Of a DNA stretch of 64,000 bases, positions 36,754 through 59,450 are shown in pieces (positions within the stretch are counted from its first letter, which is position 1; each line of letters begins with the position of its first letter). Source of the DNA: Membranipora membranacea (Eukaryota; Bryozoa; Gymnolaemata; Cheilostomatida; Membraniporidae); assembly GCA_914767715.1 (NCBI GenBank), contig OU612069.1, positions 4,278,001 through 4,342,000 of the forward strand, read 5' to 3'. Both the position numbers and the translations under genes were made by a program. The notes under the pieces were generated by a model. It was not told where the DNA came from and ran no database searches. It saw nothing but the letters and a program-made list of their open reading frames with translations.

Positions 36754-36759
36754 CTTTAT
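36754..36759 (-). terminator. Candidate polyadenylation signal of the LRR-Roc-COR-caspase gene
   Basis: AATAAA on the minus strand, about 70 bases after the stop codon at 36828. Confidence 0.55.
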
Positions 36760-36827
36760 TTTCAAGATAAACCGACACGCTAATGAATAGTTGAGGTGCT
36801 TACTTCTCTTAATAATGTGTGAGACAG

Positions 36828-39800
36828 TCAGTGCTTATATTGCCTGTGGGTAGCCAAGCTTTTTAGGAGACTCTCCTTTGTATGCTTGGATCTTCGTAGA
36901 GAGCCTGTCCTGCTCACTACAGGAGGAAGAACAAGGTTCTTCTGAAGTGTATTCCGTGATTCTGGAGACTGATCATACTGGTCTCCTTCATTCTCCTTCA
37001 TGTCCATGACAGCATTCGTAACCATCTCATGTATGGTTGTCTTCCCATCAGCCTTAGCAAACTGCCTGGCTATGGCTCCAGTAAGAGCTCCTCTGACAGC
37101 CATCTCTCCAACCACTGTTGACATCAGTAGCAGTGTATGAGGCCTCTTTAGTACGACATGGTCCACCTCATTTGGTTTAGCTCCCTTTGCATCAGAATGG
37201 CTTGTTGAAGGTCCAGCTGCTTGTGGAGTTTTGTAATATTGGCAGGCCTGAATTATGGCAATCTACAATGTGTAATATATTATATCGATTGACTACGAAT
37301 ATTTTGAAAGTATAATATAGTGTGCAACCGTAGTTACAATTTTATTTTGTTTGATAGTCAACAGATGGTTATTATTCGAATGAGAAGTTATTACATCATC
37401 AGCCCATGCCACATATTGATCCATTTTTCCGATCATCAGCATGTTTGCTGCCGTGGAGTATTGAAGAATGAATACATACCATTGGGACATGCTCAGACAA
37501 CTTATTATCTAGTATCTGTAGAACATCAGTGATGGGGATATGCGAGCCATTGCAGCCATACAGCATTCCGGCTTTTCCATGGGTCATGATGGATATGACA
37601 AGAAGGGAGATTCCTTGGGATGGAAGCTCAGCAATTCTGGGACGCAGGTCTAATGTACTTTTCCATTCTATCTTCTGAGTCTCGCATCCTGCTGCGACTA
37701 GGCTGTCAGCCATTTTATTAGCTTCATCTTCAGCATCAGGTCTATTCTCGGTGTTGAACAGCACCAGACCGTACCTCTTCATATGATCTTGATGATGTGG
37801 TATGATGTACTGGTCACTCTGAACAAATAGTCGATTGATGTCGTTAGCGTCTAATGGATGCTTCTCTATGACCTCCTTCAGTATCTGTGACTTGTCACCT
37901 GGTTGAAATTAGAATTCAAGTCGAAGAGATATAGACAACCTGCAGCTTCCATTCTATTGTATATATAGCATTTTACAATTGTAGATTTTAATATTTAAAT
38001 GAGATATAGATATATATATGATTGTGACATATAAACTCATATTTAAGACGAGTGGTTGTCATCATTAGTATGCATTGATGTACCCAACAAATATCTCTGC
38101 TAGCTGTGCAACTTGGTGTCACATTACAGTAATGTCAGTTGTAGCACCTTACCACTGACTTCAGATATAATGATAACCATAAAACATATATAACTTGAAT
38201 CAAATTAGCAGACTTTTGTTAGAGAGTCATAGTTGGCTAGATCAAATTTTGTTGATTTGCTTGATTTTCAAGTTTCTCCCATTTATGGTCACACTAAGAT
38301 GATCACACATAATACGTAATATAATGTAATATATAGATGTAATACAACAACTTTTAATGGATAAAAACTGATTAAACATGTACTAAGTTTTATAAATTTT
38401 AATTCAAATTAATTCGGAAACTTACTTGATAAGACAAGCTTTGATATGTAGCCTTGAAGTTCAGTATGACCAGCCTCTGTTATGCTTGAGCCTAAAATAT
38501 TCGCAAAGAATCATTGATAATAAAATGAGTTTTCCATGCACACAAAAATCAGTGTCTGGGAGGGCTGCTGAAGAGGGGGTTCAAGGTAGGTAAGCAGCTG
38601 TAGTGGCTGGAGCACAGGGAGATGGTGCTTCAAGTTCATTTTATTAAAGCAATTTGCCTTTTCCATGCCAATAAAGATACTTTACACTATGATAATACAT
38701 ATTTTTAGGACTTTTACATACATGGTTTCATGAGTGGTTGTGGAACAAGTCGGTTCTCTTTGTTCTGCACTTCCTTTCTGCAGACAAACTTCTCATATCC
38801 GGTAAAGCTGGGAGCTTTTTCTCTAGAACTATCTGGAACATCCTCTTGGTACCAATCAGGATCAACAGCTGTTTGTGGGTCTAGTTTGATAGTTAGTAGG
38901 CAGTGAGAACAGTAGAAGACACTCTCATAACGAACTCCTTTCCAGACAGATTTGAGTTCGGTGGTGAGCTTTCTCAGGGTCGAAATCTGCTCTTCTCTCG
39001 CTTCACAGAGGCTTTTCTGAGGTGTCAGAGTGATTAGAGTGACACGCTTTTCACCTGCATTGTGAAGGAGGTGTTCGATTATCCCATTACTCTTGGTCAC
39101 AGTAGCACCATTCCCACCTGCCTCTGGAAAGTTTGAAGGATTAGAATTCATGTCTAGATAGACGGCAGTGATGAGGGAGAAGATGTAGCTGGGTATGGGT
39201 AGACCGCGGAGATGAAGATCGACCTTCAACGGCACCAGTTGATCGTACACTTCAGGGGCTGTTATTGTTCGGCTGGCAAAATACGGTATAATGTATTTCT
39301 GATTGCTTATTGCAGCATTTGAACCGCATTGATGCACAAGATGAAATGTTCTTAGGATTTCGATGGACACATCGGCAGGGAGTTGGGATTCTTGCCCTAA
39401 GAGGTGTAGAAGCAGAGGTGCATCCATCACTCCTGTGTCATTGAATGTGTCTATCATCTCTACATATCTGCTCTTCTCTATGGTTTTTCCGTCAACAAGA
39501 GAAAACGGAGTAAATTTATCTAGCCTTTTGTACCAGGATTCCTCTTTTGTGTGGTTGTATAGTACTTCTATCACACTTGTTATGACTTTAGAGCGATGGA
39601 ATATAAAGTTTGATAGCTTGTTTAGTCTCCTGAACCACATTATTTGACTTATTTCATGAAGATACTCGAGAGTGACATGTCCTTTATCATCAGGGAATTC
39701 TTTCTCTATTTCAGACAGGGTGAGCATGGGCTTGTCAGAGTGTTGGACTAGCTTCTGTAGTATTCGATACCAGCTACCGGGAATCTCAGTGATTAATCCT

Positions 39801-42800
39801 GCGCCAGCTGCTATGATAGCATTTTTCAGCTTGTCGATTTCAGGCTGTCCGGATGTCTTCGAGAAGTGATGGATGTCACAAGGCCTTATCAGGACTTCTG
39901 AGGTGTTGGCGAAGCTGGTCATGGTGAAGATCGGGTTAGAGTCCTTTTTCTGTTCGACATTATTTTCTGCTTGAATTATACGTTGGCGCAATTTCTCAGT
40001 CACTTTGAGCAGTTGATGAGTCGTCTGTTCAACCTTATCAGGTATACTGTCACAGTGAGTGAGGACTACTACAGGTCTTTTCAGTTGAGGACACGCAATG
40101 TAGAGGTGGGATAACCACTCAATACAAAGCTCTTTACAGGCAGATTCCTCACCTTTCTCTGAAACTAATCTTTCAAACTCAGCAATGTCTATCACTAGCA
40201 GCGGCACACATTTTCTTCTAAAAGTCAGTCTATAGGAAAATTGGTAGATCTTCTGGCCTCCGAAGTCAGTAAAGAGTATTTTTGATTTCTCGTCAGCTTC
40301 CGCCTCGCTCATTTCAAACACTTTAGTGGCAGCATCCAATTTCCCCTCATCAGAATCGCGTTCCGTCAGCACCCTTTTGTTTGCTTGCACACTGTTAACA
40401 AGGCTTGTTTTACCAGCTCTGCTTTTCCCTATGACAGTGACAGGTATAAGTCTCTGATTACTGGCTTTCTCAATATGGAGGTCATGAATGTACTTTCTCA
40501 CAGCTTCTACACCTTGCGTACAGACACCTAGTGGTGGAGAAGTTAGAGAATCACAGTTATCACACTCTACTTTTTCTAATGTGGGGATACTGAATAAGCT
40601 CTCGGGGATGGTTGTGAGAGATCTGTTATACTCGATATCCAAACACTTCAGATTAATCAGCTGGCTGATGCTGCAAAAGAACAGAAGATAAAGTGTATTG
40701 TGTGAGAAGGTGAAGTGGTCACCTGGTTATCATCTTATTCAGAGGGGATAATGCTGGGAAGAGAGGGATGTGGCAAAGTATGCTGAATCGTTGGGTAAGT
40801 AGAACCTTCCTACAACTTCTTTAAAGAAATGAAGGTGAATTGGTTATAAGGTCCTTTTAACTAACAAAATGAAAATGCTCCAATTCAATTTCAATGACAA
40901 TCTAGAATAATATTTATGAATGCATACAAATTTTTATATACGTGTTTCTGTAATATTCATAGAGACTCGACGATATTTGAGTTCATTAACTTCAAGCTCA
41001 AAAACATTTCTGAGATAAACTCATCTAGGCTCAACATTATCTGTAAGTATTTAAAAAATTAAAGTGCATGGATTCGAGGAAGAGACACAGGGGTCAGTGA
41101 ATATCAACATTCTGTATTCCACTGGAATGCTGCATAGCTACTGATCAGTAACAGCTCATAAAAATGTGATTGGATGACATTGTGTCATTTCATCCAAGAA
41201 ATGAGGCCAAAAAGGCTGTTTTTACGAAAGTGGGTGGCTGAGCTGATATGATTTCTGTATATTTCAAAACAGGTTATATTTATTCTTAGAGATATAGTTC
41301 ATCCTGAATTTACATTGAAAATAATATGTGATGGGCCTTTTATGTCACTTATTTATGCCAGTGATCTTTTAAATTTTATGATTCAATGTGAAATTTTTAT
41401 GCTACGATTTGAGACAGATCGGATAATTTTTGCTGTTTCCCACTGAAGTGCTGTTTGAATGACACATAACAATAAATTATCAAGATCATCGAGAGTAGAT
41501 AAATTTTGCCTCATTTTTACATAGAGCCAAACATGCTGTCAAAGGGACCATTACAAAGGCTAGACCTTTTTTAAAAAAGAAGTTTGTCTGGCCTAAATAA
41601 TGGTCCTTTTGACAGGATGTTTTGCACTATGGAAAAATGACCCGAATTATATCTACATTCGATAGTCTGTGCTGATGTTGAATACTTGCACTGCCAAATT
41701 TGGAAGAGAATCAATTTAACTGTGAAGATTGTTGTCAATAGATGTTAAGAAAAAATTGTTATACTGCTGAAAATTTGTGTGTGGGTCATTCAAACAGCGC
41801 TACAGTCGATAATAGCGAAAAATTGGGTCTTACTTATTCGGTCTGTCTCAAATAGTTGCTTAAAATTTCACATTATTGATCATCAAATTTCAAAAACCAT
41901 GTGATGTCAAATGCCGCAGTAGGCTCATCATATATCATTTTCAACCAAAAATTGGGATGGTCTATATCACTTAGAAAAAATATGACCTGTTTTGAATTTC
42001 TTAGCAATCTAATAAGCTCAGCCATCCACATTATCTCGTACATGGCGGACATGGCGGACATGATCAATTTCAGCTCTGAGAAAAATTAACATAATACAAA
42101 CAATACCAACACTCAACCTAGTACTACGGAACACTAAACCCTGCAGAAAGGTGTACCAAACCACAAGATCAGTTCCTGAACACTGCCAGCTGGATACGAG
42201 GAGTCTTTGGTTGTCTTAGGAGGGTCACTGTGGCTGATCATTTTTGGCTGGAAACTGAAAACTGAGAAAGTCTAGAGTAGCTACACCAGTGGAACATCAA
42301 ACAACTCTAACATCTTGGTATTTATAGCACAAATATCAAAACCACAACTGCACCATCTTATTCAAACCTATGATCACCCTTCTTGCCCATTTAAGAATAG
42401 CCATATACTATCCCCTGAGCTCTAGAACTAGCGCTTGGTAGGTTGGTGATTTCTACTACTTTCGCTTACTTGCACTGATCATAGTGTTCTGAGTTTGTCA
42501 GACATGGCTGGTGCGACTAGCAGTAGGCCTAACAGTAGAGAAAGCAGTCCTGCCTCAAAGAACGTTGGCTGTGTTGTGTCTTCAATGAGAAAAGGTAAGA
42601 AGCTAAATTTTATCTGTGCAAGTTGCAATAAACCAGCCCATACCACCTGTATGGAAGACTGGAAAGAAATCACAACTGGTCAAGATCTCAAAAATATAAT
42701 TGGTAAATCTGGTTCACTCTGGTACTGTCACGCTTGTCTCCCTAAATTACCGACTTACTCTCCGACACCTGGTGTTCCAGAAGCATTAGATTAGGTCGGC

Positions 42801-45800
42801 AAAAAGCTAGAGAATATGATGAAATTGATCGCTGTCACTAATACTAATAATGAATCATATAGTGAGGGGAGGTGAGTCCAAACCTGACCCAACTGTGAAT
42901 CAAGTCTCAGGTCCAGCTCAAAGGCTTGACGATCGACTCAAACAGGTTGATAAAGTCAATGCTAAGCAGATTGGGAAAACTTGTGCCATTTTGCACGAAA
43001 TATCTGAGGAATCTAATACACATTCCATAGTATTTGATTCTCTTGCTGATCTTTCTATGCATGAACACACTGTTGTAGAAATTAGCAGGTTAGGCAAGCA
43101 AAAAAGTACCTACTCCGAACCTCGCCTTATAAAGATTCGAAGTCAACAAGATCGAATTCATGAAATGTTACAGTAAATACGAGGGCAGAGAGGATTCATT
43201 TGCTACCAACGATCTATCACCAGAGATGAAAGACCTCGAGTACCAGCTGCGTATCAAAAAACGTGAATTAACCCAAGCTAACACTGGGTCTAAATATCAC
43301 GTAAGCAATGGGGCACTCTACATCTACGATAAAACAGCCAAACTATGGACAATAGTCGAAGTTGACTTAGAACAGATATCGGTTACTCAAACTGCATCAT
43401 CAAATACTGACCAATCACTGCCTAACAGTGAATAAATCAACAGCTAACGAAAACCAACCTACTACCATTATAAACAATAAACACAATCTAAAAATCATGT
43501 ATTGGAACTGCAACGGCATCAGCGGTAAGAGACACCACCTCAAAACTATGCTAGACCATCATACACCGAACATCTTCGCTCTATCGAAGACAAAACTTCT
43601 CACCTCCATCACCGATCGTGAAGTATGCGATAAATACACACTCCATCGCTACGACCGCACTCACGGTGTGGGTCGTGGTGGCGGAGTACTTGTAAGTATA
43701 TCCAACAGTAGTAACATTCATATATTGAAATGTAACAAATATGATGGTGGTGAAATCCTTTCGCTTGATGTAAATGTTAACGGTTTTTCTTTTGCGTTCG
43801 TAGTTCATTATCACCGGCCGTGCGTGAAAAACATAGATGATTTTCTAGCTTGGCATAAATCTATCCTATCTGCAAAGACAGTTGTTGTCGGTGACTTTAA
43901 CCTGCACGACATTGACTGGCGAACATCTTCACTGAAAAATAGGAGAGATCTGTATATGCATACTTCGCTTTTAGATTTTCTAGATTCCAGTGACTTAACG
44001 CAACATGTGAAGTCACCCACTCATATCCTCGGAAACATTTTGGATCTCATTCTCACAAATCTGGAGATATCTGAACCTGACATTCAACCCAGTAGTTCTG
44101 ATCATCATTGTCTAACCTTCAATCTGTATTCTGATGTCCCAGTCATACATGCTGCACCTAGCGTGAACCCGACTCAATACTGGAAGTTCCACAAAACTGA
44201 AAAAAACTCTTCTTGCGCTTCTCAGTTCGACACTTCTCAGGATAGTATTTTGATATTACAGGTTTATGAGAGGATGTTTTAAAATTATTGATCTTGATTC
44301 TATTAAAAAAGAGGATGGCTCGAGTCCTCAGAAACTTTGCTAAAATAGTGTGCACAGACGGAAAATAAAAACTTGTCAGTCTTTAGAAGATTAAGCTGAT
44401 CTAATAAAGAAAAATAATCATCAACCTCGGTTAAAACAATTTTACTACTAGTTTTATCTCAATCTTTACCAGAAAGTGATGACATAATGGAGTCATTTGC
44501 CTAACAATCAAGTTATTGATATTACTAAACTGGTTTGGCAGATCAAGCAATATTTATCAAGCTGCCATACAGATTACCAATTACTAATTTACAACAGTCC
44601 AAGGCTGTGAATACCTTCCAAAAACTCTCCTGACTTGATGACTGCTGGCCTCATTCATACCTGGGGTGTATTGCTATTTAGGTGAATTGAGATTTTCAAT
44701 CCAAGAATATTTCTTGCCAAAGTATGTATGTATGTATGTATGTATGTATGTATGTATGTATGTATGTATGTATGTATGTATGTATGTATGTATGTATGTA
44801 TGTATGTATGTATGTATGTATGTATGTATGTATGTATGTATGTATGTATGTATGTATGTATGTATGTATGTATGTATGTATGTATGCATGTATATTGTAT
44901 TGTTATCAATACTTGATAAAATTCATTGTTGTTTTGCTCTGTGATGCCAAAAAATATAAAATAAATTATAAATAAAAAATATTAAAAAGTAATTGTTATT
45001 ATTATGATTACCAAGTTATAGATTCACTTAGTTGTTATTATAAATAGATGATTTTCAAGTGGGTTATGTGGAGTGAGCGTCATCACAAATATTTTCCTGA
45101 ATTAATATCAAAAAATGTATTATTGGGATAAAATTATGGTTATGACAGTGCTGTACAACTATCGGTTAGACACTGTGTCGTTTGCTTATTTAAGCCTGCA
45201 TGACAAGAATAAGTACCATTTTTAACAGCATGGTAAGAGCGTTTGAATTTGTAAGAACAGAATTCCTAATTTGGCAATACGTGGGCGTAGATTTGTGATA
45301 CAGATAGTAGTTTGAACTTGATCTGTGCTGCTGAAAATTACTTATTATAATTATGATTTATTATGATATTCATTGTTTATTTGAGCCAATTGTTAAATAT
45401 TAAATGAAATCATTTTCAGTTACATAGACTATGAGCCAACCTGCCAGCATGTCCGAAAACAACAAAACTAATCAGGTGGTAAAGACTGTGACAATAATTA
45501 ATTTCCATTTTTGTTTGCGTTATATAATTTTGAGAAATAAGGTGCTTTAATTCATCAAATTAAGAAAGTATGGCCTCATATCTGACTGTGCATTGATACA
45601 ATGTTAAACCGTTGATTTTTAATTTAAAACACCCACCAGAGGTGTGCGGCTGATGGGATTCCAAACTGTCCACTTGTGTCCATGTGTCCTTTGCCCATCT
45701 GTTGGACACATTTGATGGGAAATTTGTATTAATGGACAGACAATTTTAGCTGGACGGATAGACCGAATTGAATGGCCAATTCTTTTTTCAGCTCAATGAC

Positions 45801-48313
45801 CTCTTCCCACTTGCTCTGAATGAAATTAAATTGGCGTCAAAGCGTTTTTGGACTGATCAATTTAACGAGCCACCTGGGAAAGAGGTATGTGTTGGGTATA
45901 CCATGAATTGGGTACATTTTTAATAGAAACAGAGGGGCAAAAAAAATTGCATAGTATACCACCTGTATTATTGAACCTTATTGGTGTGAGAGTTGAACAA
46001 TCTAACCTCTTATATCATTGGCTGACCTATATATCTCAGGCAAACCAAGCCAATGTTCCCTCCCATGACCCTAAGAGAGGTAACAAACCAACTGGTGCTT
46101 AGTGTGCATCACCACCCAGTGGTGCGTCTACTGTAACCGATGTGGAAGTTGATCAAACACCAGACGATACCCAAAGTTTGATCATCAGTCATTCCAGAAG
46201 CGACCCGTCCTTGTTTGTTGGTGATCAAGTTAAAGATGAGCCAAAAGTTGAAATCCCCGAAAGCTCACGCCCAAGAGCAACCTCTGGTTCTTCCAGATCT
46301 GGCAAATTTGCCGTTGTCAAAAAAAGTTATTAAAAGTAAAATCAACTCTCTTCTCCCTGACCAAGCCAAAACCCAAAGAGGGAGATGATTGAACTGAATA
46401 ACAATAGTAATAATGAATTAATATGGTGATTGAATTTTAATGTAGGGTTTTTACAAGAAACGTTGAATTTAAACCATGTTATATCTTGCATTATAGCTTG
46501 ATAGTGTCCCTTTCTACATTAATTATATAATCAATTCCATATGTACCTATTCCATGTTTCTTACCAGCTATATAATTATAAGTAGTACCAGATTCATCAT
46601 CTTGACCAGTTGCTTGAAATTTAAACCATGATGCATCACATCCTTGTCATATTCATTGTCTTTACCAGGTGTGTGATTAATACTAATGATGAATTCCAAG
46701 TGCCTGGTTAGCTCGTCGGTTCAATACCTTACGGAGCTAGTTATACTTGATCTGACCATAACAATTCCAATATCACAGTGAGACGCCAGTCCTTTTTAAC
46801 CATCCCCATATCTCACTCCCCTATGTTGATTTCCTTTCCAATACACAATCGAGAAAAAAAGGAAGACATGTGAGAATTGAATAAAGAGGGAAGGCATGTG
46901 AGAGTTGAACAATCTAAACTCTTATATCATTGGCCTATATATCTCAGGCATAGATCGGAACTACGTCAGAACCCGGGAACCTCAAATGTGTGCCTCAGCC
47001 CTTTACATCTAATATTTCAAGGTGAGAAGTCATAAAATTAATTCTCTCATCAATATTAGCTGTTATACTTGTCACATAAGTATCACAATTGGAACAGACC
47101 TAAATGGACCTAGATGAACATGCGCGGCAATGGCTGGTTTAGGCCACAAAGTTTTTTGCAATCATTGATTTGAGTTTCATATATCACCAATACAACGTCA
47201 ATCGAACCAAGTCACATTTTATTAAAGCAGTCCTTTAAGAACCAGTCTTTGATTCGGTCAAACACTTATTTTCTCTTGACATACTTTTTTGAGAACAAAC
47301 TACTGCAGCCTGTCTAGCAATCCTGTACAAAGAGAACTAGTTGTGATACTGTTGAGCTATTTGAAGACTAGATGCATAAAATTGACAAAAAGAGAAGGTT
47401 TTGTTAATTTGAAAATGTCCAGTTATGTCTTTTCTCTTTACATGAGAGCTTCAATTCAGTTTCGATCAATGAAACTTAATAGGTGACCAATTTTGAATTG
47501 TGTGCATGATGAATATTGCTAATATAGTTAAATTGTTAATATCGAATCGTAATATAATTGCATATGTATGTCCTTTCATTTTCCGCGCGCCTATTTAAAT
47601 CGATGATGCACCAACTAAATTATTTGCACTTTAAACCGGAGTTCCCAATTTTAAGTTTTCCTGAAAGGAATGTTGGTGTAATGGGGTCAGCCCAATGTTG
47701 TCCTGACCTCTTTTAGCGCCGCTGTAAGGAAGCGCATCTCGCTTACCCAAAGGTTCTACTGTTGCAAACATCTGACTCACATGTTTTTTTCAGATATTCG
47801 TAGGTATTTCAAGCGATGCAAGTTACACGATTCAGATTTGAAACTTATTCTATAATTGCTGACTAAAAATATAGACTTAATATGTAAATATCAATGCTTT
47901 ATTAAACTTGCTTTCTAGTGATGCATGTTATGGGATTCAATTTATCAATCCATAGTGACATTTCACTCCATCCATAAAAAATGTGGAGTATTCACTAGCC
48001 TTAGCTTCTGACTGGTATAATTGTGATGCATTGATACTCGATGCATCAAAGACAGATGTTATGACATGTTATGTCAATGAGATTAAACTTAACCTAACCC
48101 AGTCATAGGAAACTTTAAGATAAATCACCATACTCACAGGGAAGAAACTAATTGTGTCTGCGTCTGACTCACCTGTCTGGAAGGCTGGTCAAGCCACAGC
48201 CACTCGCACCTATACTCTTCAATGATTGAATTTCCCCCAATCCTGCAGGTAATGTCTGTAGACCCTTATTCCCACTAACATCTAACGACTCCAGTCCTGG
48301 CAGTGTGCAGATG
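36828..48313 (-). CDS. LRR-Roc-COR-caspase fusion protein (3' part of gene)
   Basis: The minus-strand exons are 48313-48173, 40670-38722, 38491-38426, 37898-37480 and 37262-36828. They join in phases 2,1,1,0 with good splice sites, giving ~1,002 residues and a TAA/TAG-type stop. Order: two leucine-rich repeats (LESLDVSGNKGLQTLP) and a third partial one; a Roc GTPase with P-loop GKSRAGKTS, G3 DFGGQ and G4 THCD; a COR region (IPGSWYRILQKL, LHEISQIMWF, IPYFASRTI); a ~65-residue linker; then a caspase fold. In p20, the catalytic His lies in MTHGKAG and Cys in IIQACQYY (usual QACRG). The linker contains NEVD, a caspase-type cleavage tetrapeptide. p10 contains MAVRGALTG. Roco proteins are dimerising GTPases and caspases activate by dimerisation, so ligand-driven self-activation is plausible (inference). 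The N-terminus is not found. The caspase part could be a separate gene, but every junction keeps phase. Confidence 0.85.
41190..42060. repeat. Long imperfect palindrome (~400-bp arms) inside the caspase-gene intron
   Basis: The two halves pair around ~41595. Matching blocks from outside in are GTGGCTGAGCT near 41240 with its complement near 42018; TTCAAAACAGGT; GATATAG.CCATC..; TTTGAGACAGA.CG; GTGCTGTTTGAATGAC against GCGCTGTTTGAATGAC; TCATTTTT.CATAG; and ATG.TGTCAAA.GGACCATTA. Arms differ by many substitutions and small indels (~75% identity by eye). No ORF is present. It may be a foldback transposon or two opposed copies of one repeat. A transcript through the intron would form a long hairpin. 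Confidence 0.8.
42504..43435 (+). pseudogene. LINE ORF1 with PHD-like zinc finger, frameshifted
   Basis: The first part (ATG 42504, stop 42792-42794) carries a PHD-like finger: FICASCNKPAHTTC then SLWYCHACL, i.e. C-x2-C-x4-H-x3-C ... C-x2-C. Coding-like sequence continues in a second frame (42850-43176: RLGKQKSTYSEPRLIKI) and a third (43160-43435: LSPEMKDLEYQLRIKKREL). Together these resemble the RNA-binding ORF1 of CR1/L2-like LINEs, where a basic (..RP.K..) segment precedes a LTP...YELR..L.RR segment. At least two frame changes break it. Its stop overlaps the beginning of the ORF2 frame. Confidence 0.75.
43428..44282 (+). pseudogene. LINE ORF2 endonuclease domain, truncated
   Basis: This 284-codon frame encodes an apurinic-type (EEP fold) endonuclease that nicks target DNA for LINE insertion. 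Visible motifs are MYWNCNGISGK (N of the active site), GRGGGVLVSI, VVVGDFNLHDIDW (GDFN), FLDSSDLTQHVKSPTH, ILDLILTN and SSSDHHCL (SDH, catalytic His). The usual catalytic Glu in E-T-[WK]-L is replaced: the site reads LSKTKLL. The frame ends in unrelated residues after ~44200, with no reverse transcriptase. First in-frame ATG is at 43498; the GTG at 43428 overlaps the ORF1 stop. Non-functional. Confidence 0.85.
44722..44889. repeat. (TATG)n microsatellite
   Basis: About 42 uninterrupted TATG units, with one C near the right end (TATGCATG). On either strand it gives long spurious frames (MYVC or HTYI repeats) that are not genes. Confidence 0.98.
45431..46102 (+). CDS. Small three-exon gene in module A, unknown function
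   Basis: Exon 1, 45431-45475 (MSQPASMSENNKTNQ), follows a 5'UTR acceptor TTTTCAG at 45418-45419. Exon 2, 45792-45884, reads LNDLFPLALNEIKLASKRFW then TDQFNEPPGKE. Exon 3 starts at 46040 (ANQANVPSHDPKRGNK) and stops at 46100-46102. All junctions are phase 0, giving 66 residues. Beyond the TAG the same frame remains open to 46333 with coding-like, acidic/Ser-rich content, including VKDEP (a consensus SUMO-acceptor pattern). The stop may therefore be a recent lesion in a longer protein. Other module A copies hold broken versions of exons 1 and 2. No family is recognised. Confidence 0.4.
45986..46950 (+). repeat. ~54-bp direct repeats bracketing an insertion in module A
   Basis: GTGAGAGTTGAACAATCTAA followed by CTCTTATATCATTGGC and CTATATATCTCAGGCA occurs at 45986-46042 and again at 46899-46950. 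The other module A copies lack both repeats and everything between them: they read straight from CTTATTGG into AACAGACCTAAA. The repeated block contains the acceptor of exon 3. Confidence 0.75.
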
Positions 48314-48970
48314 CTGTGGTGGATAAATAGCAGAATGTTTAAATACCATGCAATACTGCTTGTCAGTTGATGGAGCAAAGCGAATTGAGCAACGCATTCT
48401 ATTAATTGGAGAAAGTTTCAGATTGATCAATTAACCATGTAAGTTGTAACTATCAGATATAGATGTTAGATGATTATACGCATGTATTTTTAATCCCATG
48501 TCAAAGAGATCAAATGAAACCTAACTCAATCATAGCAAACATTGAGAGAGAACGTAAGTTTTTGAATGAAACCTTAGCTGCAGTCGTGTACACAAGGTAA
48601 ATAAAACCAAAGATTGAATATAACCTTATTGTTCTACTTAAGATATCTAAAAGAGTCCTAAGAGTCGATAGAAGATGTTTAAACATCATAAATCTAAATT
48701 ATCTTACATTTAGACAAGGAAAAATCATGTCAATTTCATCATCAAGCGGTACCATTATTTATACCTTTTAACCGTTTTCAAACTGACTTGAATTGGTCTC
48801 ACTAGTGAACTTTGGAGCCAAATTATTTAATGACTTGCCTCTGACCATTAAGCTGTGCCCTGAGCTCAAATTATTCAAGTTAGACATAAAAATCCACTTT
48901 TTTGTGCAGAATTATTAAACTTTTCTACCTCATAATACTTGTATTTTTATTCTTCCTAATCTGAAAATTT
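47910..48970. repeat. Repeat module C, copy 0, split by the LRR exon
   Basis: Homologous to 52000-52560 and 61830-62210 (shared CATTTCACTCCATCCATAAA, CTTCTGACTGGTATAATTGT, TTAGCTGCAGTCGTGTA, AAGATTGAATAT). Between 48120 and 48498 it is interrupted by the LRR exon (48173-48313) and its flanks. The module sequence GTCAA.GAGAT.AAAC.TAACCTAAC.CA.TCATAG is present on both sides of that segment, at 48072-48111 and 48501-48540, but only once in the other copies. Confidence 0.7.
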
Positions 48971-49244
48971 CAACTGTAATCTCTTTAATTTTTACGTTTT
49001 GGTTTTCCTAGTAGTTCAAACACACTTTCATTATTTTATTCTTTTAAAAGAAATCCTTGGTACCCAGGTTATTGACCATATTCCCTTGACTTATTAGTAC
49101 TACCAGAATGAATATATGAAATATATATAAGTGATTGTGAGAGCATTGTTTTAATTAAGGTTGTATCCCTGTTGATTAATATTACTTTTCACAGGTTTCA
49201 AGATTATATATCACAAAGCTAGAAGATATCCATAGATTGGTTCT

Positions 49245-51060
49245 CCCAAATGCCAATAATACTGATACACCTATGACATAAAATAATTGAATTAAAAATG
49301 GCAATCAGTTGCCACAACTCTGGAAATTGGTATTGCATATCTTTTTCAGCATATCAACAACACTCTGAATCATCAAAATCAAAAATATAGTCTGCTGTGC
49401 CTGGCGGGTAGCTTTATTTTTGTGTGCCTAATACTGTTTGCTGACAAAACACTAGTCTAGAAGTTTTGAAATATTACAACTTAACGCAGTGGAATTGCTG
49501 TGTGTGCCCCTGTGCGATTTAAGATGGTTGAGATACAATGCTTGGATGGAGCTTGAATTTGCTACTCTGTGACAGGGATTTGCGAGATCTGGTTTCTATT
49601 AACAGTGCTAATAGTGATGATGTGTAAATTTGCTTTAAGGTATGATATGGGCACGATACTGAAACCTGGTGGCCTGAAGTTAGGAGAGGCAAGCTCATAA
49701 GACTTGAAAAGTTATCTTATAGGTTTTAAAATAATTAAGAGTGTACGGTGATCACATTCACCCCCTTCATGTGTACTAAAATAACTTAGGTAAAATAATG
49801 AATAAATCTGCCAGTCCCTGTTTTAGAATCCCAATATTTCTTTGTCATGTGGAGGGTTCTAAAATTACTGGTTCTTCTATCATACCTAGGTACTTTATAT
49901 ATTCCGCTTTCACAATTAAATATGGGTTCCGTTTTCATATTAGGAACAATAATCTATGTGGGCATTCAATACTCATAGTCTGATATTATAAGTGATGTCA
50001 TGTTAGAAGACAAGACTACAGGTTCACATCAAATCTTCATTGTGATATGAATATTGTATCATTGTATTGTGCTGATTGTGAGGCCTCTATAGAATTCAAT
50101 ACTTTTCATTGTTTCAACTTTTGGTAAACAAAAGAATCCTTTATATGCTGTGCCTGATTCTTTTCAATAGAGGATAAATATAGCATGTCAGCTTGCATCC
50201 AAAGTTTATGTGAGAATACTGAGAATAAATTTCTAGAAATGCTGCATTAAATGAATGGAAAACACGATAGAGTGACCCTAAATGAATGTTCTTTTGGCAA
50301 CGTCACAACGAGGTCACACAAAAAAGTGGACGCTTTTAGCATTTGTAGAAAGGCATTTCAATTGAGTCATCTGGTTAATAAAAGATAATATTTTGCCAAC
50401 ATTTCATCACGTTGTATGAAATTCATGATTTTTTGCATTCATTTCGAGGATTAAATAGTAATTACACCGCTAAGCCTGGACAGTAACTTTCAATCATGTT
50501 GTGATGGTTTCTGCATCAAATTAAAAAAAATGTAGGGGGAGATGAAGAGGAAACCATATAAGTCACTTAGAAGCAGAAATAACATCAAGTTGGTAACAAG
50601 ATGCTGCTGTTTGTAAAGCAATTTTGAAACTCGAAATCCGATCAAAATTGATTGAGTTATTTTGACAGTAAACCAATGATAATATCATTGCTTACTACAC
50701 CTTCCAATGACGTTGTGTTACCCACAATTGAGTGCCTCATTTCAGCTATATGTAGTTTCCTGTCTAGGTTTCTAATTAAGTCTATGGGTGCAATTGATTA
50801 TGTTACAAAAATTAATAGAAATTTGTTATCATATTTCAATTAAGGTGCAATAATCTAGTATTTACCCTAAAATATACAGCCTATATCTTGCTCATGAAAT
50901 TGGTCACAGCTTTAGAGTGTCACAATACACAAATTAGTAATATTTACTTCTAAACTTAAAACTACTGATAACTCATAATCGTTTAGTTGAGGGACGAAAA
51001 ATCATGCTGCTAGATTTTTTGTCATCACTCGCACATACAAATCTTCTGCAAATAAGCTTA
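49245..51060. repeat. Repeat module B, copy 1
   Basis: Collinear with 53130-54835 at roughly 85-90% identity by eye. Shared strings include AAATGGCAATCAGTTGCCA, CAGCATATCAACAACACTCT, CAGTGGAATTGCTGTGTGTG, AATGAATAAATCTGCCAG, GGTTCACATCAAATCTTCAT and GGGAGAT.AAGAGGAAACC. Frames such as 49798-49983 and 53635-53865 are equivalents in the two copies but have no recognisable domain. Confidence 0.9.
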
Positions 51061-51999
51061 ATCAGGAAGTGATAATCACTAAATTTAGTCGATACTTAAT
51101 AAATTGAGGGAGGAATTTGACATGCTGAGTCAAGCTTGGCGCTATCAATTCGTAAGGTTCAATGCTAAGGGTTTATATTTGTAAGATGAGTGATCAAATT
51201 GGTGCAAAGCTATAGTATTATTACATCGAGTGCAAAGACAGTTTTAACTAGATGTACAAGCGAATTTGTTGCTCTCAATTATTTGTTGATTAAGAACAGG
51301 GACAAGCTGGCCCAGGATAGCGAATTAAGGTGGAAAAATGATAATTTATTTGAGCATCATGTTATGTCATCATTATCAATGATTCTTCTATACATATGAG
51401 TTTTTGCAAAATACTCAATATTAAACTCAGCTCAACTTAAATATTCATTGTTAGAGCTGCGGTGTGAGATAACAAAGCAGCCCAATGGCAATGATATGAT
51501 TATCATTGAAATGTATAGACAGACAATGCCCTAAGACAATGGATGAATGTTATGTGTATTCGTTGAATTTTAAGTTTGTCAGTCTAAACTAGGCCTCAAC
51601 TAGAAGTATAAACTTCTGGAATTTAAACTTCTAAACTTCTAAATTGCTATAAAAATGTACTTTTTTTGCGATAACTCTTCTCAAAGAATGCAGAATCTAT
51701 TTTAGTAAAAATGTATACCCAGCATCAACATGACGAATAAGTCTGTGAATTTTCGAGTTAACACGGTTATTTTTGACCCTATATAACTTCGTTGAAAGAC
51801 ACAAAGTAATAAATGCATCAAAAAGTACCGTTTTTTTAGACTTTATGGTTATTTGTTTTAAGATTTAACAACATAAAACCAAAATAAACATAGTTGCAGG
51901 TTAATAGGAAGCTAAAAGAGTTTTTGAAGAGTATAAGGCAAACTAAGTTTGAGGTAGGGAGAGATAACAAGGAAATTGAGGGAGAAGTATAAGTCACTG
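51061..51999. other. Sequence between repeat modules, nothing assigned
   Basis: AT-rich. The frame 51190-51399 lacks splice context or recognisable domain. Confidence 0.35.
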
Positions 52000-53125
52000 A
52001 GTAATGATGCAAGTTATGCGATTCAATTGATCAGTTGATAGTGATATTTCACTCCATCCATAAAAAAATATGGAACATTGACTAGCCTTTGCTTCTGACT
52101 GGTATAATTGTTATAAATTGATACTCAATGCATCAAAGACGGATGTAATGACCTCATCCTATTTCGATACTGATTTGATTTTCTCAAACTTATTTTTCAG
52201 GGCATGACCTTCAAGCGGTCTGACAAACTGAAACATAAATCAGTTTGGAAAAATGAGATAAAAGTATGAAATTTAAATCCAATGTCAATGAGATTGAACG
52301 AAACCTAACCCAATCAGAGCAAGCTTTGAGAGAAATCGTAAGTTTTTGAATGGAACGTTAGCTGCAGTCGTGTAGGCAGGGTAAATAAAACCGAAGATTG
52401 AATATTCCACTCCATTTCCTTATTGCTCTAATGAATATATTTAAAGTAGTCCTAAGAGCCGATAACAGATGGTTAAACACCATAAATATAAATTGACATA
52501 AACCTGAGACAAGACAAAGGCATATCAATTCCACCATCAAGTGGTACCATTATTTATACCTCTGAACAGTTTTAAAATGTATATAAGTGATGATGAAATA
52601 ATAGTTGAATTAAGGTTGTATCCCTAAACATGTTGATTCATAATTCTTAGGTGGACCTGTGGCTGTTATTTGAGATTACTGTAATGTTGTAAGTCCGGAA
52701 ACCTAATTCAGCCACTTGAAAGCAAGAATTTGGCTTTTATTCAAATTGTGTAGCTTGTTGTATGGTCATAACCTTTGTGTGTGATGCTACAATGGTTATG
52801 ATAATTGTGTATTCATTTTTCGTTTCTTATTAGGATATATTTTCTTATTTATTTGTTCTGCAGCTAGCTGCGTATCAAATCTGCTTCTCGGTTTGTACCT
52901 AATATAGAGAAGCCTAGGTGATGACTGTGAAATGTAAAGTTGATTCTTCTAAAATCTTTCATTCAAGTAATTTTTAGCAGAGAGCAAGTAATGTCTTTAT
53001 AAATGACATTAATTTTTGTGATGCTTTTTATTATGTTCTCTCAAGCAAAGTTTTGCTTGTTTTACTCTTTCACTTGAGGTTTTGAACAGGAAATCTGAGA
53101 CTAGCCCCATCTTTGCGTGTTGATC
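52000..53125. repeat. Repeat module C, copy 1
   Basis: Collinear with 55405-56160 (second half) and with 61830-62760 (nearly all). Shared strings include TATGGAACATTGACTAGCC, TATATAAGTGATGATG, GTTATTTGAGATTACTGTAA, TTCTGCAGCTAGCTGC and TGACATTAATTTTTGTGATG. It contains no gene. Confidence 0.88.
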
Positions 53126-53129
53126 AGTA

Positions 53130-54835
53130 AGTCCCAAATGCCGATAATACTGATAAACCTATGGCATAAAATAATTAAATTAAAAATGGCAATCAGTTGC
53201 CATAACTCTGGAAATTGGTATTACATATCTTTTTCAGCATATCAACAACACTCTGAATCATCGAAATCAAAAATAAAGTATGGTATGGCTGGCCGGTGGC
53301 TATATTTTGGTGTGCTTAATGCTGTTTGCTGACAAAACACTAGGGTCTAGAAGTATTACCACACAACGCAGTGGAATTGCTGTGTGTGCCCCTGACCGAT
53401 GTAAGATGGTTGAGATACAATGCTTGGATGCTGTTTGAATTTGCTACTCTGTGACAGGAAATTTGCGAGATCTAGTTTCTATTATCAGTGCTAATAGTGT
53501 TGCTTGATGTGTAAATTTGCTGTAAGGTTATGATCTGGGCAAGATACTGAAACTTGGTGGCCTGAAGTTAGAAGAGGCAAGGCTATAAAACTTGACAAGT
53601 TATCTTAAAGGTATAAAAAAATTAAGAGTGTATTGTGATCACATTAACCCCCCTGTACTGTAATGACTTAGGTAAAATAATGAATAAATCTGCCAGACCA
53701 TGTTTTAGAATCCCAATATTTCTCTGTCTTGTGGAGGTTTCTAAAATCACTGGTTCTTCTACCATACCTAGGTATTCTTTATATTCTGCTTTCACAATTA
53801 AATATGGGTTCCATTTTCATATTACGAACAAAAATCTAAGTCGGCATTCGATACTCATAATCTGATATTATTTCAAGTGATGTCATGTTAAGAGACAAGG
53901 CTACAGGTTCACATCAAATCTTCATATGCTAAGCCTGATTCTTTTCAAAAGAGGATAAATGTAGCATGTCAGTTTGCATCCAAAGTTTATATGAGAAATG
54001 CTACATTAAATGAATGGAAAATACGATAGAGTGATACTAAATAATTCATCCATGGGCAACGTCACAACTAGGTCACACAACAAATTTGATGCTTCAAGCA
54101 TTTGTAGAAGTGCACTTGAATTGAATCATCTGGTTAATAAAAGATACTTTTTGCCAACATTTCAACATATTATATGAAATTCATGATTTTTTGCATTAAT
54201 TTGTGGATCAAATAGCAATTAAACCACCAAGCCTGGACAATAACTTTCAAACATTTTGTGATGGTCTCTGCATCAAATTTTAAAAATGTAGGGGGAGATA
54301 AAGAGGAAACCATATAAGTCACTGAGAAGCAGATATAAAATCAAGTTGATAAGAAGATGCTGCTATTTGTAAAGCAATTTTGAAAGTCGTAAATCCGATC
54401 AAAATTGATTGAGTTATGAACATAAAACCTGAATTGTTGACAGTAATTCAATGTTAATATCATTTATTACTAAACCTGCCAATGACATTGCGTTGCCCAC
54501 AATTGAGGCCAGTTATACTTCAGTTATATGTAGTGTCCTGTATAGGTGTATAATTAAGTCTATGGGTGCAATTGATTATGTTACAAAAATTAATAAATTT
54601 TTTTTTATCATATTCAAATTAAGGTGCAATAATCTAGTATTTACCCTAAAATGTACAGCCTATATCGTGCTCATAAAATTGGTCAGAGCTTTACAGTGTC
54701 ACAATACATAAATTAGTAATATTTTCATCTAAACTTATCCGTGATAATTTATCATCATTTAGTTGAGGGACAAAAAATCATGCTGCTAGATATTTTGTTA
54801 TCACTCTCACATACAAATCTTCTGCAAATAAGTGT
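53130..54835. repeat. Repeat module B, copy 2
   Basis: Second copy of the module at 49245-51060, directly following module C copy 1, with small indels throughout. Confidence 0.9.
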
Positions 54836-54839
54836 AGGT

Positions 54840-55405
54840 AGACTCTTAATCTTTACTAGTAGGGGATGGTCTAATGAAGTCATTTGCCGAACGATCAAGT
54901 AGGCCTATTGAGTTTTTCAATCTCGGAATATTGTTCCATGAAGTAATTGTTATTATTATAATAACCTAACTATGGATTTAATTACTTCTTTTTGTAAGAA
55001 TAATACGGAATCGTCAAGTGGGAGATGTCAACAATAGAAGTTTGGTATAGAAGAACATATTATTGTGATACGGTTATTACAGTATTTTGAGCAATAGTAG
55101 GGCTTTCGGTTAGAAGATGTGTCTTTGCCCATGTAAGCCTGCATTACAAGATTAAAATCCATTTTTTACAGCACAATTGGAGCAATTGAATTTGTAAGAA
55201 GATAATTCCTAATTTAGCGATATGTTGGTGTTGACTTGTGAAACAGATAGTGGTGTGAACTTGATCAGTGCTGCCAAAAAAAAAAGAATTTATAATGGCA
55301 TTCATCGTAATATATGTAGCAAATTTAATTATTCTCAGTAGCGAGCCTGTCTGCCAGCATGTCTGACAATCAACAAAACCGATGAATTGGTAACAACTGA
55401 TAAAA
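54840..55405. repeat. Repeat module A, copy 2 (partial)
   Basis: Contains the first part of module A (GAAGTCATTTGCCGAACGATCAAG, GGCTTTCGGTTAGAAGATGTG, GATAGTGGTGTGAACTTGATC) up to a degenerate exon 1 of the small gene. That exon reads ATGTCTGACAATCAACAAAA and is soon followed by a TGA at ~55383. It then switches to module C. Confidence 0.75.
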
Positions 55406-56430
55406 TTATTACACAGGGTAAATTAGTCCAAAGATTGAATATTCCGCTCCATTTCCTTATTGCTCCAATGAATATATTTAAAATAGTCCTAAGAGTGGAT
55501 AACAAATGCTTAAACATCCTAAATCTTATTTGACTTAAAACTGTCACAAGGCATATCAATTCTATCATCAAGCGGTACCGTTATTTATACCTTGAACAGT
55601 ATTCAAATGTATATAAGTGATGATGTAATAAGTGTTTGAAATAAGGTTGTATCCCTAACAATGTGCATTCATATTCCTTGGGTGGCTCTGGGGCTGTTAT
55701 TTGAGATTACTGTAATGTTGTTAGTGTGCACACCTAATTCAACCTGTTGAAGGCGAGAATTTGGCTAATATTCATATTGTGTAGCTTGCTGTATGTTCAT
55801 AACCTTTGTGTGTCATACTACCATGGTTATGATTATTGTGTATACATTTTGGTTTGTTATTTGTACATATTCTTTTATTTACGTGTTCTGCAGCTAGCTG
55901 CCTACCAAATCTGTTTCTCAGTTTGTACCTAACTTTGAGAAGCCTAGGTGATGACAGTGATATATTGAGTTGTTTCTTCTAAGATCCTTCATTCAAGTAA
56001 GTTTTTGCAGTGAGTAAGTGTCGTTATAAATGACTTCTTAATTTTTGTGATGTTTTTATTACGTCCTCTCAAGCAAAGATTTATTTGTTTTACTCTTTCA
56101 CTTGAGCTTTTAAGCAGGAAATCTGAGAGTAGCCACATCTTTGCGTCTTGATCTTGAATATTTTTCACAGAACAAGAAGTTCCTTATTTATAAAAAATAA
56201 GCTATAATCAATAAATTGGCCAGTGCCATAAACAGAAATCAAATTTATTCCTGTTGTCAGGGGAACACCACGGGTACAGGGATTTAATAAAAAATTGAAA
56301 AACAATAAATCTATTACAGAATAGGTGCTCAATTAGTCTGTGTCCCAATCTCTTACAACTCAGATGTTTCTGTCCAGTGACCAGCAATGCTTCATAAGTA
56401 ACACCAGACAATACTTAATAACTTTTTCAA
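55405..56430. repeat. Repeat module C, copy 2
   Basis: Matches 52380-53125 and continues into a segment (56150-56345: AACAAGAAGTTCCTTATT, CATAAACAGAA, GGAACACCAC) also present at 62755-62955. Confidence 0.85.
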
Positions 56431-56599
56431 GGTATGTAGGCCTACTACGATACAATACAATTCATTCTATATATGTATGGTACCCAGTCATTACGAAGTG
56501 CAGTGAAGTGAAAAAGTTATGTTTGTCATCTAACATGTCAGCTCTTTGTTGTTTGATCTCAACCAAATTTTGTATGCAGTACATGCTTGACACTGAGAA

Positions 56600-59450
56600 T
56601 TTTGCTCTGAATAATATGAGAAAATATGACTGTGTATACAGAAGCTTACTGTGCAGGTCAACACAAATATTTTCCTGAATTAATATTGGAAACAATTATT
56701 ATTGTGCTGATGTTATTAGAGTAATGTACGGCTTTCGGTTAGAAAATGTGTCGTTCCCTTATTTAAGCCTGCATGACAAGAATAATAATACCATTTTTAA
56801 CAGCATGATTAGATCGTTTGAATTTGTAAGAACACATTACCTATTTGAGCAATATGTGGGTGTAGACGTGTGATACGGATAGTGGTGTGATATGTGCTGC
56901 CCAAAATTAGATTCATATTTATTATTATTTTCATTTATCGTGATATTCATTGTTTAGTTGAGCCAATTGTTACATATTAAAGGCAATTATTTTCAGTTAC
57001 ATAGATTATGAGCCTGCCTGTCAGCATGTCCGACAATCAACAAACCTAATCAGGTGGTAAAAACTGTGACAATACTTAATTTCCTTTTTTTACGGTATAT
57101 ACTTTTGAGAAATAACCTCCTTTAGCTCATATAATCGAGAAAGGGTAGCCTCGTAGCTGACAGTGCATTTTACAAGGAAAAATAGAGCTGCATTATAACC
57201 TTCAGCAGGTACTGATTTTCGTATTTGATCACTCACTCACTGCAGCTGATGGAATTCCAAACTATCCACCTGTGTCCATGTATCCTGTGCCCATCTGTTG
57301 GACACTGTTGGCATGCAACATGTACTGGACGGGTGTTGACTGACAGGCAATATGTTTTAATGGATGGGCAGGTTTTTGCTGGACGGATAGACAAAGAAGT
57401 ATGGCCAATTTTTTCAGCTCTTTCCACCTCTTCTGACTCGCGCTAAATAATATTACTTGGCGGCAAAGTGTTGTTAAACTAATCAATTTAGCAAGCCATC
57501 TGGGAAAGAGGTGTGTGTTGTGTAGTGCCCCTATACCATGTGCTGGTTACATTGTTATAGACACAGAGGGGCAACAAAAAATTACATAGTATACCACCTG
57601 TATTATTGGACTAGACCTTATCAAAAAAGACCTAAATTGACCTAGATGAACATGGATGCAATGGCTGGTTCATGCCACAAACTTAAAATTAAAAAACAGA
57701 TCATTGCATCCTCATATGACACTTAGATGTACTTCTTGTGTTTTATATATTGCCAATGAAACGTCAATCGAATCAACTCACAATATATTGAAGCAGTCTT
57801 TTAGTAACAAGTCTTTGATTTGGTCAATCACTTATTTTCTCTTGACATACTCATTCGAGAACAAAATGCTGCCTGTGCTGACTGTGCATTGATACAATGG
57901 TAAATCGTTTATTTTTATTTTTAAACACCCAGCAGAGGAGTGCGGCTAGTGGGATTCCAAATTGTCCACCTGTGTCCATGTGTCCTTTGCCCATCTCTTG
58001 GACACATTCGATGGGAAAACCTGTACTAAAAAGGCATGAGCAGATGGAAAATTTGTTTTAATGGAAGGACAGTATTAACTGGACGGTAGACCAAATTGAA
58101 TGGCCAATTTTTTTTCAGCTCAATGACCCCCTCCCACTTGCTCTAAATGAAAATACATTGGCGGCAAAGCGTTTTTAGACTGATCAATTTAACAAGCCAC
58201 CTGGGAAAGAGGTATGCGTTTGGTATACCATGAATTGGGTACATTTTTTTATAGAAACAGAGTGGCAACAAAAAATTACATAGTATACCACCTGTATTAT
58301 TGAACCTTATTGGAACAGACCTAAACGGACCTAGATGAACATGCATGCAATGGCTGGTTTATGCCACAAAGTTAAAATTAAAAAAACGCTCAATTCATCC
58401 TTATATTAATTAATATGGCACTTGTATGTACTTCTTGTGACACGCCTATTAAGACAACTATAGGGGAACGAGTGACAAAACAGCAGACTGATCAGTTTAA
58501 ACATTCCTACATCTCTAGCTCAAATTTTGTGAAACTCACTTCTTTTTGCAATCATTGATTTAAGTTTCATATATCCCCAATGCAACGTTAATCGAACCAA
58601 GTCACAATTTATTGAAGCAGTCTTTTAGAAACCAGTCTTTGATTTGGTCAAACACTTATTTTCTCTTGACACACTCATTCGAGAAAAAACTACTGCAGCC
58701 TGTCTAGCAATCCTGTATAAGGAGAGCTAGTTGTGATACTGTTGAGATATTTGAAAACTAGAAGCATAAAAATGACAAAAAGAGTAGGTAATGGTAATTT
58801 TAAAATGTCTTTTCACTTTACATGAGAGCTCCAATTCGGTGTCGATCAATGAAACTTAAAAGATGACAAATTTTGAATTGTGTGCATGATAAATATTGCT
58901 AATATTGTTAAGTTGTTAATATTGAATCGTAATATGATTGCACATGTATGTCCTTTCATTTTCCTTGCGCCTAATCAAATCGATGATGCACCAACTAAAT
59001 TATTTGCACTTTAAACCGAAGTTCCTAATTTCAAGGTTTCCTGAAAGGAAATTTGTTGTAATGGGGTCAGTCCAATGTTGTCCTGACCTCTTTTAGTGTC
59101 GCTATGGGGAAGCGCATCTCACTTACTCAAAAGTACTACTGTTGCAAGCATCTGACTCACATTTTTTTTTCAGATATTCATAGGTATTTCTAGTGATGCA
59201 AGTTACACGATTCAGATGTGAAACTCAATCTATAATTGCTGACTAAAGATATAGACTTAATATGTAAATATAAATGCTTAATTAAACTTGTTTTTTAGTG
59301 ATGCATGTTATGCGATTCAATTTATCGATCCATAGTGACATTTCACTCTATCCATCAAAATGTCGAATATTCACTAGCCTTAGCTTCGAACTGGTATAAT
59401 TGTGATGCATTGATACTCGATGCATCAAAGAGAGATATTATGACAGTCTC
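56600..59450. repeat. Repeat module A, copy 3, with internal tandem duplication
   Basis: Collinear with 45080-47900. The part from GGATTCCAAACT.TCCACCTG to GACCTAGATGAACATG occurs twice, starting near 57250 and 57952, before the module continues (TTATTTTCTCTTGACA, CCTTTCATTTTCC, GGAAGCGCATCTC) to ~59450. It lacks the ~1.1 kb insertion found in copy 1. Confidence 0.85.
57008..58215 (+). pseudogene. Broken copies of the small module A gene
   Basis: Exon 1 homologue at 57008 (MSLPVSMSDNQQT) ends in a TAA before the donor. Exon 2 homologues at ~57417-57512 and ~58119-58211 contain stops and frame changes relative to 45792-45884, although flanking CAG acceptors and GGGAAAGAG/GT donors persist. 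These copies cannot encode the 66-residue product. Confidence 0.7.

Follow-up and report, generated by a model that had tools for sequence, protein, structure and literature searches.

A bryozoan locus that probably encodes leucine-rich repeats, a Roc GTPase, COR and a caspase in one protein

Can a single animal gene carry a sensor, a GTPase switch and a protease in one polypeptide? The question is raised by a locus of Membranipora membranacea in a stretch of 64,000 nucleotides (assembly GCA_914767715.1, contig OU612069.1, forward-strand positions 4,278,001 to 4,342,000), which we call the window and in which all positions below are counted. An earlier note, made from the letters of this DNA without database searches, had joined five minus-strand exons into one coding sequence for leucine-rich repeats (LRRs), a Roc GTPase, COR and a caspase. 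The present analysis points to a single gene of an invertebrate animal that encodes an LRR-Roc-COR-caspase protein, most likely a sensor-switch-protease, and we put the probability of this reading at roughly 0.7. The evidence for it consists of the recognized domains and splice signals, an end of the Roc-COR exon that relatives share, and the retained pair of catalytic His and Cys.

Gene model

The exons and the signals at their ends are the following.

48173..48313, minus strand: exon 1 within the window, 141 bp, phase 2 on both sides, about two LRRs (residues 1-47); identified by splice sites, frame and LRR matches
38722..40670, minus strand: exon 2, with the last LRR, the Roc GTPase (Pfam 40441-40049) and the COR region
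38720..38722, minus strand: end of exon 2 and start of its donor, T/GTATGT (the slash marks the boundary); in relatives, too, this end reads as a conserved phase-1 donor
38426..38491, minus strand: exon 3, 66 bp, 22 residues, phase-symmetric and possibly optional; identified by splice sites
37480..37898, minus strand: exon 4, with a leader and part of the caspase large subunit, including the catalytic His
36828..37262, minus strand: exon 5, with the catalytic Cys, the linker, part of the caspase small subunit and the stop codon TGA at 36830-36828
36755..36760, minus strand: AATAAA, the likely 3' end of the gene, 68 bases past the caspase stop

The five exons with sound splice sites and matching phases that had been proposed were confirmed: all four junctions have GT and AG, and the exons join in frame into 1002 stop-free codons. 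Among the 3548 minus-strand GT sites, the donors of the four junctions rank, in order, within the top 0.0, 2.7, 0.3 and 1.1% according to an approximate donor table, and a home-made score places the acceptors at 48313, 40670, 38491, 37898 and 37262 within the top 3.2, 0.1, 6.2, 8.0 and 20.8% of AG sites. Since exon 1 opens with an acceptor at 48313 and not with a start, the gene continues in the 5' direction and more exons are expected upstream; scanning with regular expressions revealed no further LRR exon in that direction within the window. There was also no convincing paralogue elsewhere in the window.

The small exon 3 has a coding signal indistinguishable from that of chance-open sequence, its support being the splice sites and the open frame, and skipping it preserves the reading frame. 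The stretch of exon 4 that precedes its first Met is coding: none of 762 open non-coding segments of equal length scored as high. We regard the gene as real and unusual, and its sequence as probably encoding one fused protein.

LRR, Roc and COR domains

Which of the proposed domains can be recognized by profile searches? On the joined protein of 1002 residues, Pfam Roc was matched at residues 124-254 (E value 6.9e-7, 30.0 bits against a cut-off of 27), and in a sequence search of solved structures residues 87-209 matched the CtRoco chains 3dpu, 6hlu and 8r4b (7e-9 to 1.6e-8). Five LRR families of Pfam gave matches of 5.6e-6 to 0.0024, each below its cut-off (LRR_4 by 0.1 bit), and the repeats were clear against solved LRR proteins, with an E value of 4.6e-27 to 4u08. 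The NCBIfam profiles returned LRR and GTPase matches only. The motifs named in the earlier note, three in Roc and two in the caspase part, were all located.

40403..40429, minus strand: Roc P-loop, GKSRAGKTS
40267-40253, minus strand: Roc motif DFGGQ
40060-40049, minus strand: Roc motif THCD
37587-37576, minus strand: catalytic His motif, MTHG
37250-37242, minus strand: catalytic Cys motif, QAC
within 37202-37188, minus strand: linker Asp-Ala, invariant in the exon-5 sequences

In a family alignment of 32 members including the window, the P-loop G, GKT and S are nearly invariant, and Pfam Roc is matched by 30 members, the window among them.

The case of COR is different. In the window sequence COR-A stayed below the cut-off (0.098, 13.0 bits against 35.3), and single-sequence hhalign against bacterial COR gave a value below 1%. 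A COR profile built from six plasmid Rocos gave the window 3.1 bits or less, where the best of 500 shuffles reached 8.5; with a profile from 77 bacterial Rocos, the window obtained 7.5 bits and the best of 1000 shuffles 5.7. Among the 32 aligned members, COR-A was matched at an E value of 0.01 or better by 23 (the window not being one of them) and the COR-B subdomain by two, and hhalign of the relatives' alignment against bacterial COR gave 76-83% over 73 columns. A predicted structure model, built on an alignment of bacterial rows, is nearest to LRRK1, LRRK2 and CtRoco and aligns to residue ~606. A single-sequence AlphaFold model of exon 2 (predicted local distance difference test, pLDDT, of 32.8) was not used. 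A COR region directly after Roc is thus predicted for the family rather than for the window sequence by itself, and only the relatives settled the matter. Of the domain set that had been claimed, Roc and the caspase pass Pfam on the joined protein, while COR failed there for the window sequence alone and was recovered through relatives and model only.

The caspase part

A caspase fold, whose absence from profile searches would have told against the architecture in the eyes of the earlier note, was found. Peptidase_C14 matched residues 767-968 of the joined protein, in exons 4 and 5, at 2.6e-13 (50.6 bits against a cut-off of 21.4), and exon 5 by itself was also recognized (26.7 bits), as were all six of its relatives, which makes seven of seven with the window. 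The best PDB sequence match of the caspase part is caspase-2 (E value 1.7e-4), in an alignment that crosses the junction of exons 4 and 5 and so supports that join; caspase-8 and others are far weaker, and one unrelated flagellar protein falls within their range. Exon 5 alone matched no caspase in the PDB, its one weak match being to the same flagellar protein. The best PDB matches, all weak, thus include the initiator caspases -2 and -8, whose prodomains are a CARD or a DED; no CARD, DED or death domain was detected at an E value of 0.1 in the 1002 residues, and the 5' end of the gene lies outside the window.

The catalytic His is retained in all five exon-4 sequences, and QACQ, the linker Asp-Ala and a small-subunit Arg are invariant in all seven exon-5 sequences, the window being counted in both sets. 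By comparison with known caspases, this Arg presumably occupies the place of their Asp-binding Arg. The Asp-Ala precedes a conserved RPHTLLLMS block inside an otherwise variable linker and, from its place between the two subunits, could plausibly be the site of autoprocessing.

Could the caspase part nevertheless be no protease in life, but a scaffold or a dominant-negative form like inactive caspases of the cFLIP type? After QAC come Q and variable residues in place of the RG that is common in caspases, and the loop by the first substrate-pocket Arg seems, by eye, to be shorter than in other caspases. Moreover, about 70% of the caspase domains in one bacterial effector position are reported to be inactive (PMC7159879). 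The invariance of His, QAC, Arg and Asp-Ala just described speaks against such a loss, and we judge an inactive caspase in a real fusion to be unlikely.

One protein or two?

A further question is whether the Roc-COR and caspase exons belong to one message. A search with exon 2 returned 41 proteins, namely 38 close relatives (27-67% identity) and three from bacteria. The relatives, 35 of which are 534-726 residues long, appear to be translations that a gene finder made from a single large exon on metagenome contigs; a single species may have contributed several of them as paralogues. For 30 of these 38, likeness stops at an identical 'P.PL..PC' point, after which the next residue is E in 17, K in 10, M in one and R in one, one record ending there; E, K, M or R therefore follows in all 29 relatives in which both the motif and a following residue are present. 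The motif is missing from the other eight, seven of which (P0021, P0022, P0028, P0029, P0031, P0032 and P0034) break off or change earlier, while P0038 has 'TCK' near the end of its record (by eye). The tails past 'PC' are 1 to 68 residues long and unrelated to each other, and mean identity is 0.66 just before this point and 0.11 just after it (computed over the 20 rows whose tails have at least six residues). At base level the window reads CCA T/GT ATG TAA. A phase-1 donor after T, when read in frame, gives Cys and then AAG, GAG, ATG or AGG, which predicts the E/K/M/R pattern of the relatives. Deduced in this way from protein letters, the end of exon 2 is most likely a conserved splice donor rather than a conserved stop.

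One gene might still have two products. Intronic polyadenylation at 38645 would give an LRR-Roc-COR protein without caspase (ending ...KPCM), serving as a regulator or decoy, while splicing would give the fusion.

38640..38645, minus strand: AATAAA in the intron 38721-38492, a possible alternative poly(A) signal

This signal lies 69 bases past the read-through stop, and the donor of exon 2 is the weakest of the gene. However, AATAAA is common here (11 copies between 36300 and 49000 of this strand), and the read-through tails vary among the relatives in both length and sequence, which means that there is no conserved short C-terminus. On balance, the existence of such a short form seems improbable to us.

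Alternatively, a Roco gene could end at ~38.7 kb and a separate caspase gene could begin at 38491 or 37898, perhaps as the second gene of a trans-spliced operon; such operons occur in several animal groups. The spacing is short enough for this, the intronic AATAAA being 154 bases ahead of an acceptor. In addition, the exon-4 records P0049, P0050 and P0051 each start with M just ahead of the alike part, 4 to 8 residues further up, and translation may start there in these relatives. A gene finder only reports records that open with a start codon, however, and the initial M residues fall where the window has a stop and an acceptor: a stop stands directly before exon 4, and there is no in-frame ATG in exon 3 or between exon 3 and the stop just upstream of it. 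The exon 4 leader is conserved in all three of these informative relatives (a fourth match, P0048, departs within the leader), and the first Met of exon 4 in the window is Val in each of the three. Finally, the apparently conserved donor of exon 2 would be purposeless if no exon followed. Two separate genes are accordingly a distinctly unlikely arrangement.

The single-transcript architecture of the earlier note is thus favoured by the shared end point of exon 2 and the conserved leader of the caspase exon, with the fusion itself inferred from sequence; gene model and relatives together favour LRR, Roc, COR and a C-terminal effector in one polypeptide. Some indication of linkage also comes from P0011 (Roc-COR) and P0047 (caspase exon 5), each of which is listed on a contig of 4898 bases; a shared figure arises by chance in ~2.5% of jittered draws, and it is this listed size that suggests the linkage. 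Caspase-exon relatives number 10, against 38 for Roc-COR, and other family members may carry different C-terminal modules.

The relatives also bear on the possibility of a pseudogene or an assembly artefact. The 7.5 kb intron holds a LINE-like fragment (long interspersed nuclear element) and a microsatellite, and P0047 and P0048 look partly broken or altered by eye: the frame of P0047 is lost over the final third and P0048 is different upstream, which means that some copies may no longer be intact. Against this stand the 1002 stop-free codons with their coding bias, the motifs shared by the 38 Roc-COR and 10 caspase-exon relatives, and the 94% identity of P0048 on another contig, which leave this explanation very improbable. 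P0048 is a copy of exon 4, alike over 65% of the query; it has the same intron read-through except for the last residue, and a different start, and could be a sister copy or come from a near species.

Bacterial counterparts

Is the layout new? The earlier note did not recall a characterized protein of this kind; we found no description of the animal form in the literature searched, but the layout itself is known in bacteria. PMC8195603 states that the C-terminal domains of bacterial LRR-AP-GTPase-COR proteins are of at least 24 kinds, caspase among them, so the design of LRR-Roc-COR with a caspase-type output is already known there. The gene is called here an animal variant of a known bacterial design.

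A prokaryote collection with one genome per species was scanned with a bacterial Roc-COR alignment, which gave at least 539 confirmed proteins, of which the best 80 were kept. Among these 80, a C-terminal tail of 90 or more residues was present in 70, with matches to TIR_2 in 23, TIR in 18 (the two sets may overlap) and CHAT in nine, and none of the 70 tails matched Peptidase_C14 at an E value of 0.001. CHAT is a member of the caspase clan. A set of ten tails comprised eight CHAT and two TIR.

L007, L008, L009, L011, L018, L019, L078, L082: bacterial loci for LRR-Roc-COR proteins with a C-terminal effector

Like the window gene, the bacterial AP-GTPase proteins have N-terminal LRRs (77-row consensus), Roc, COR and a C-terminal domain of the caspase clan, or TIR. 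The bacterial loci scanned differ in that they have CHAT instead of a Peptidase_C14 caspase and their genes are uninterrupted. In six scanned plasmid Rocos COR is clearly recognizable, unlike in the window, and no caspase was found in these six. A tblastn search of plasmids gave 15 records with LRR or LRR-Roc matches only, none covering 80%; a nucleotide search of phage records gave no match, one viral-contig scan no relative, and PADLOC, run on three pieces, no match. One Photobacterium plasmid Roco gene (L005, 4575-7313) stands between the transposition genes TnsA, Mu-type transposase and TniB on one side and TniQ with type I-F Csy2 on the other, and is perhaps cargo of a CRISPR-associated Tn7-like element.

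Eukaryotic comparisons

No animal LRR-Roc-COR-caspase protein was recognized in the literature searched, which covered few subscription papers and does not establish absence from print. LRRK1/2, MFHAS1/MASL1 and DAPK1 share the LRR-Roc-COR core (in DAPK1, Roc-COR with a death link), and where the window has a caspase they have a kinase, a death domain or nothing (PMC6337361, in part). The same portion of that source splits Roco proteins into three groups and does not contain the word 'caspase'. Placozoan Rocos combine Roc-COR with CARD, death and, according to a figure legend, TIR domains (PMC4104024); these are links to caspase pathways, and the accessible part mentions no fused protease. Sponge genes of the NOD-like receptor type, from Dysidea avara, include CASc and COR among the domains of a figure legend in PMC12909245, but are NACHT-based, and a COR-CASc fusion is not stated in that excerpt.

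Brown-algal ROCO genes, multi-copy candidate immune receptors, resemble the window in their phase-2 LRR exons and in a COR that often stays below Pfam detection (detected in 18 of 111), and differ in being LRR-ROC-COR only, 'caspase' occurring nowhere in the text of PMC11378527. The phase 2 on both sides of exon 1 is like that of the algal LRR exons, which the same source reports as shuffled.

Proposed mechanism

How might such a protein work? The LRRs would detect a ligand or damage signal, upon which the Roc GTPase and COR would shift conformation and oligomeric state with the bound nucleotide. Two C-terminal caspase units would then be brought together, or freed from inhibition, and would cut the linker between large and small subunits at the conserved Asp-Ala, and the processed caspase would cleave downstream substrates in cell death or immune signalling. 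A separate death-fold adaptor would be unnecessary. The sequence supports the parts, every step of this working cycle is inferred, and the GTP switch could run in either direction. The earlier statement that Roco proteins dimerize through COR, so that a fused caspase fires, proved a simplification: according to PMC11052575, active, GTP-bound CtRoco, a bacterial Roco, is a monomer. Firing of the caspase by dimerization would then belong to another nucleotide state or need clustering through the LRRs, and the story of a GTP-driven dimer may be reversed. For human MASL1, a stronger toxicity in cells is reported when GTP is lost (PMC3995007), and the switch may thus run either way on this count too.

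Other features of the window

Within the 7.5 kb intron, on the strand opposite to the gene, lies the LINE-like fragment, whose endonuclease matches Exo_endo_phos_2 at 8.6e-11 and which has weak PHD/RING-like zinc-finger matches below the cut-offs. The remaining features are as follows.

42450-44279, plus strand: LINE-like fragment
~44700-44900: long simple repeat that several frames translate as (CMYV)n or (HTYI)n
48500-58000: AT-rich sequence in which similar blocks recur several kilobases apart (by eye); no exon recognized
3878-6178, plus strand: split gene with a Flavoprotein domain (8e-6, 5.8e-4), possibly phosphopantothenoylcysteine decarboxylase (by eye)
16886-17170, plus strand: possible SAP-domain exon (4.5e-4, below cut-off)

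Implications

What would the fusion mean for the family? In the best studied animals, caspases reach sensors through death-fold adaptors. If the reading is true, the bryozoan protein would tie animal death receptors to bacterial LRR-Roc-COR conflict proteins. A caspase built into a Roco protein would also offer, with a protease readout, a direct test of whether the nucleotide cycle of Roc-COR gates an attached enzyme, which is the open question for LRRK2. More tentatively, and at somewhat less than even odds, the gene may belong to a family of animal death receptors, large in number, each a single chain switched by GTP, in which a conserved phase-1 boundary after COR takes varied output modules, here a true caspase that brings its own processing site. 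On that view the protein would unite sensor and protease in the manner of an inflammasome and be an animal counterpart of bacterial LRR-Roc-COR-CHAT/TIR proteins. The fusion might exemplify natural exchange of modules at one conserved exon boundary.
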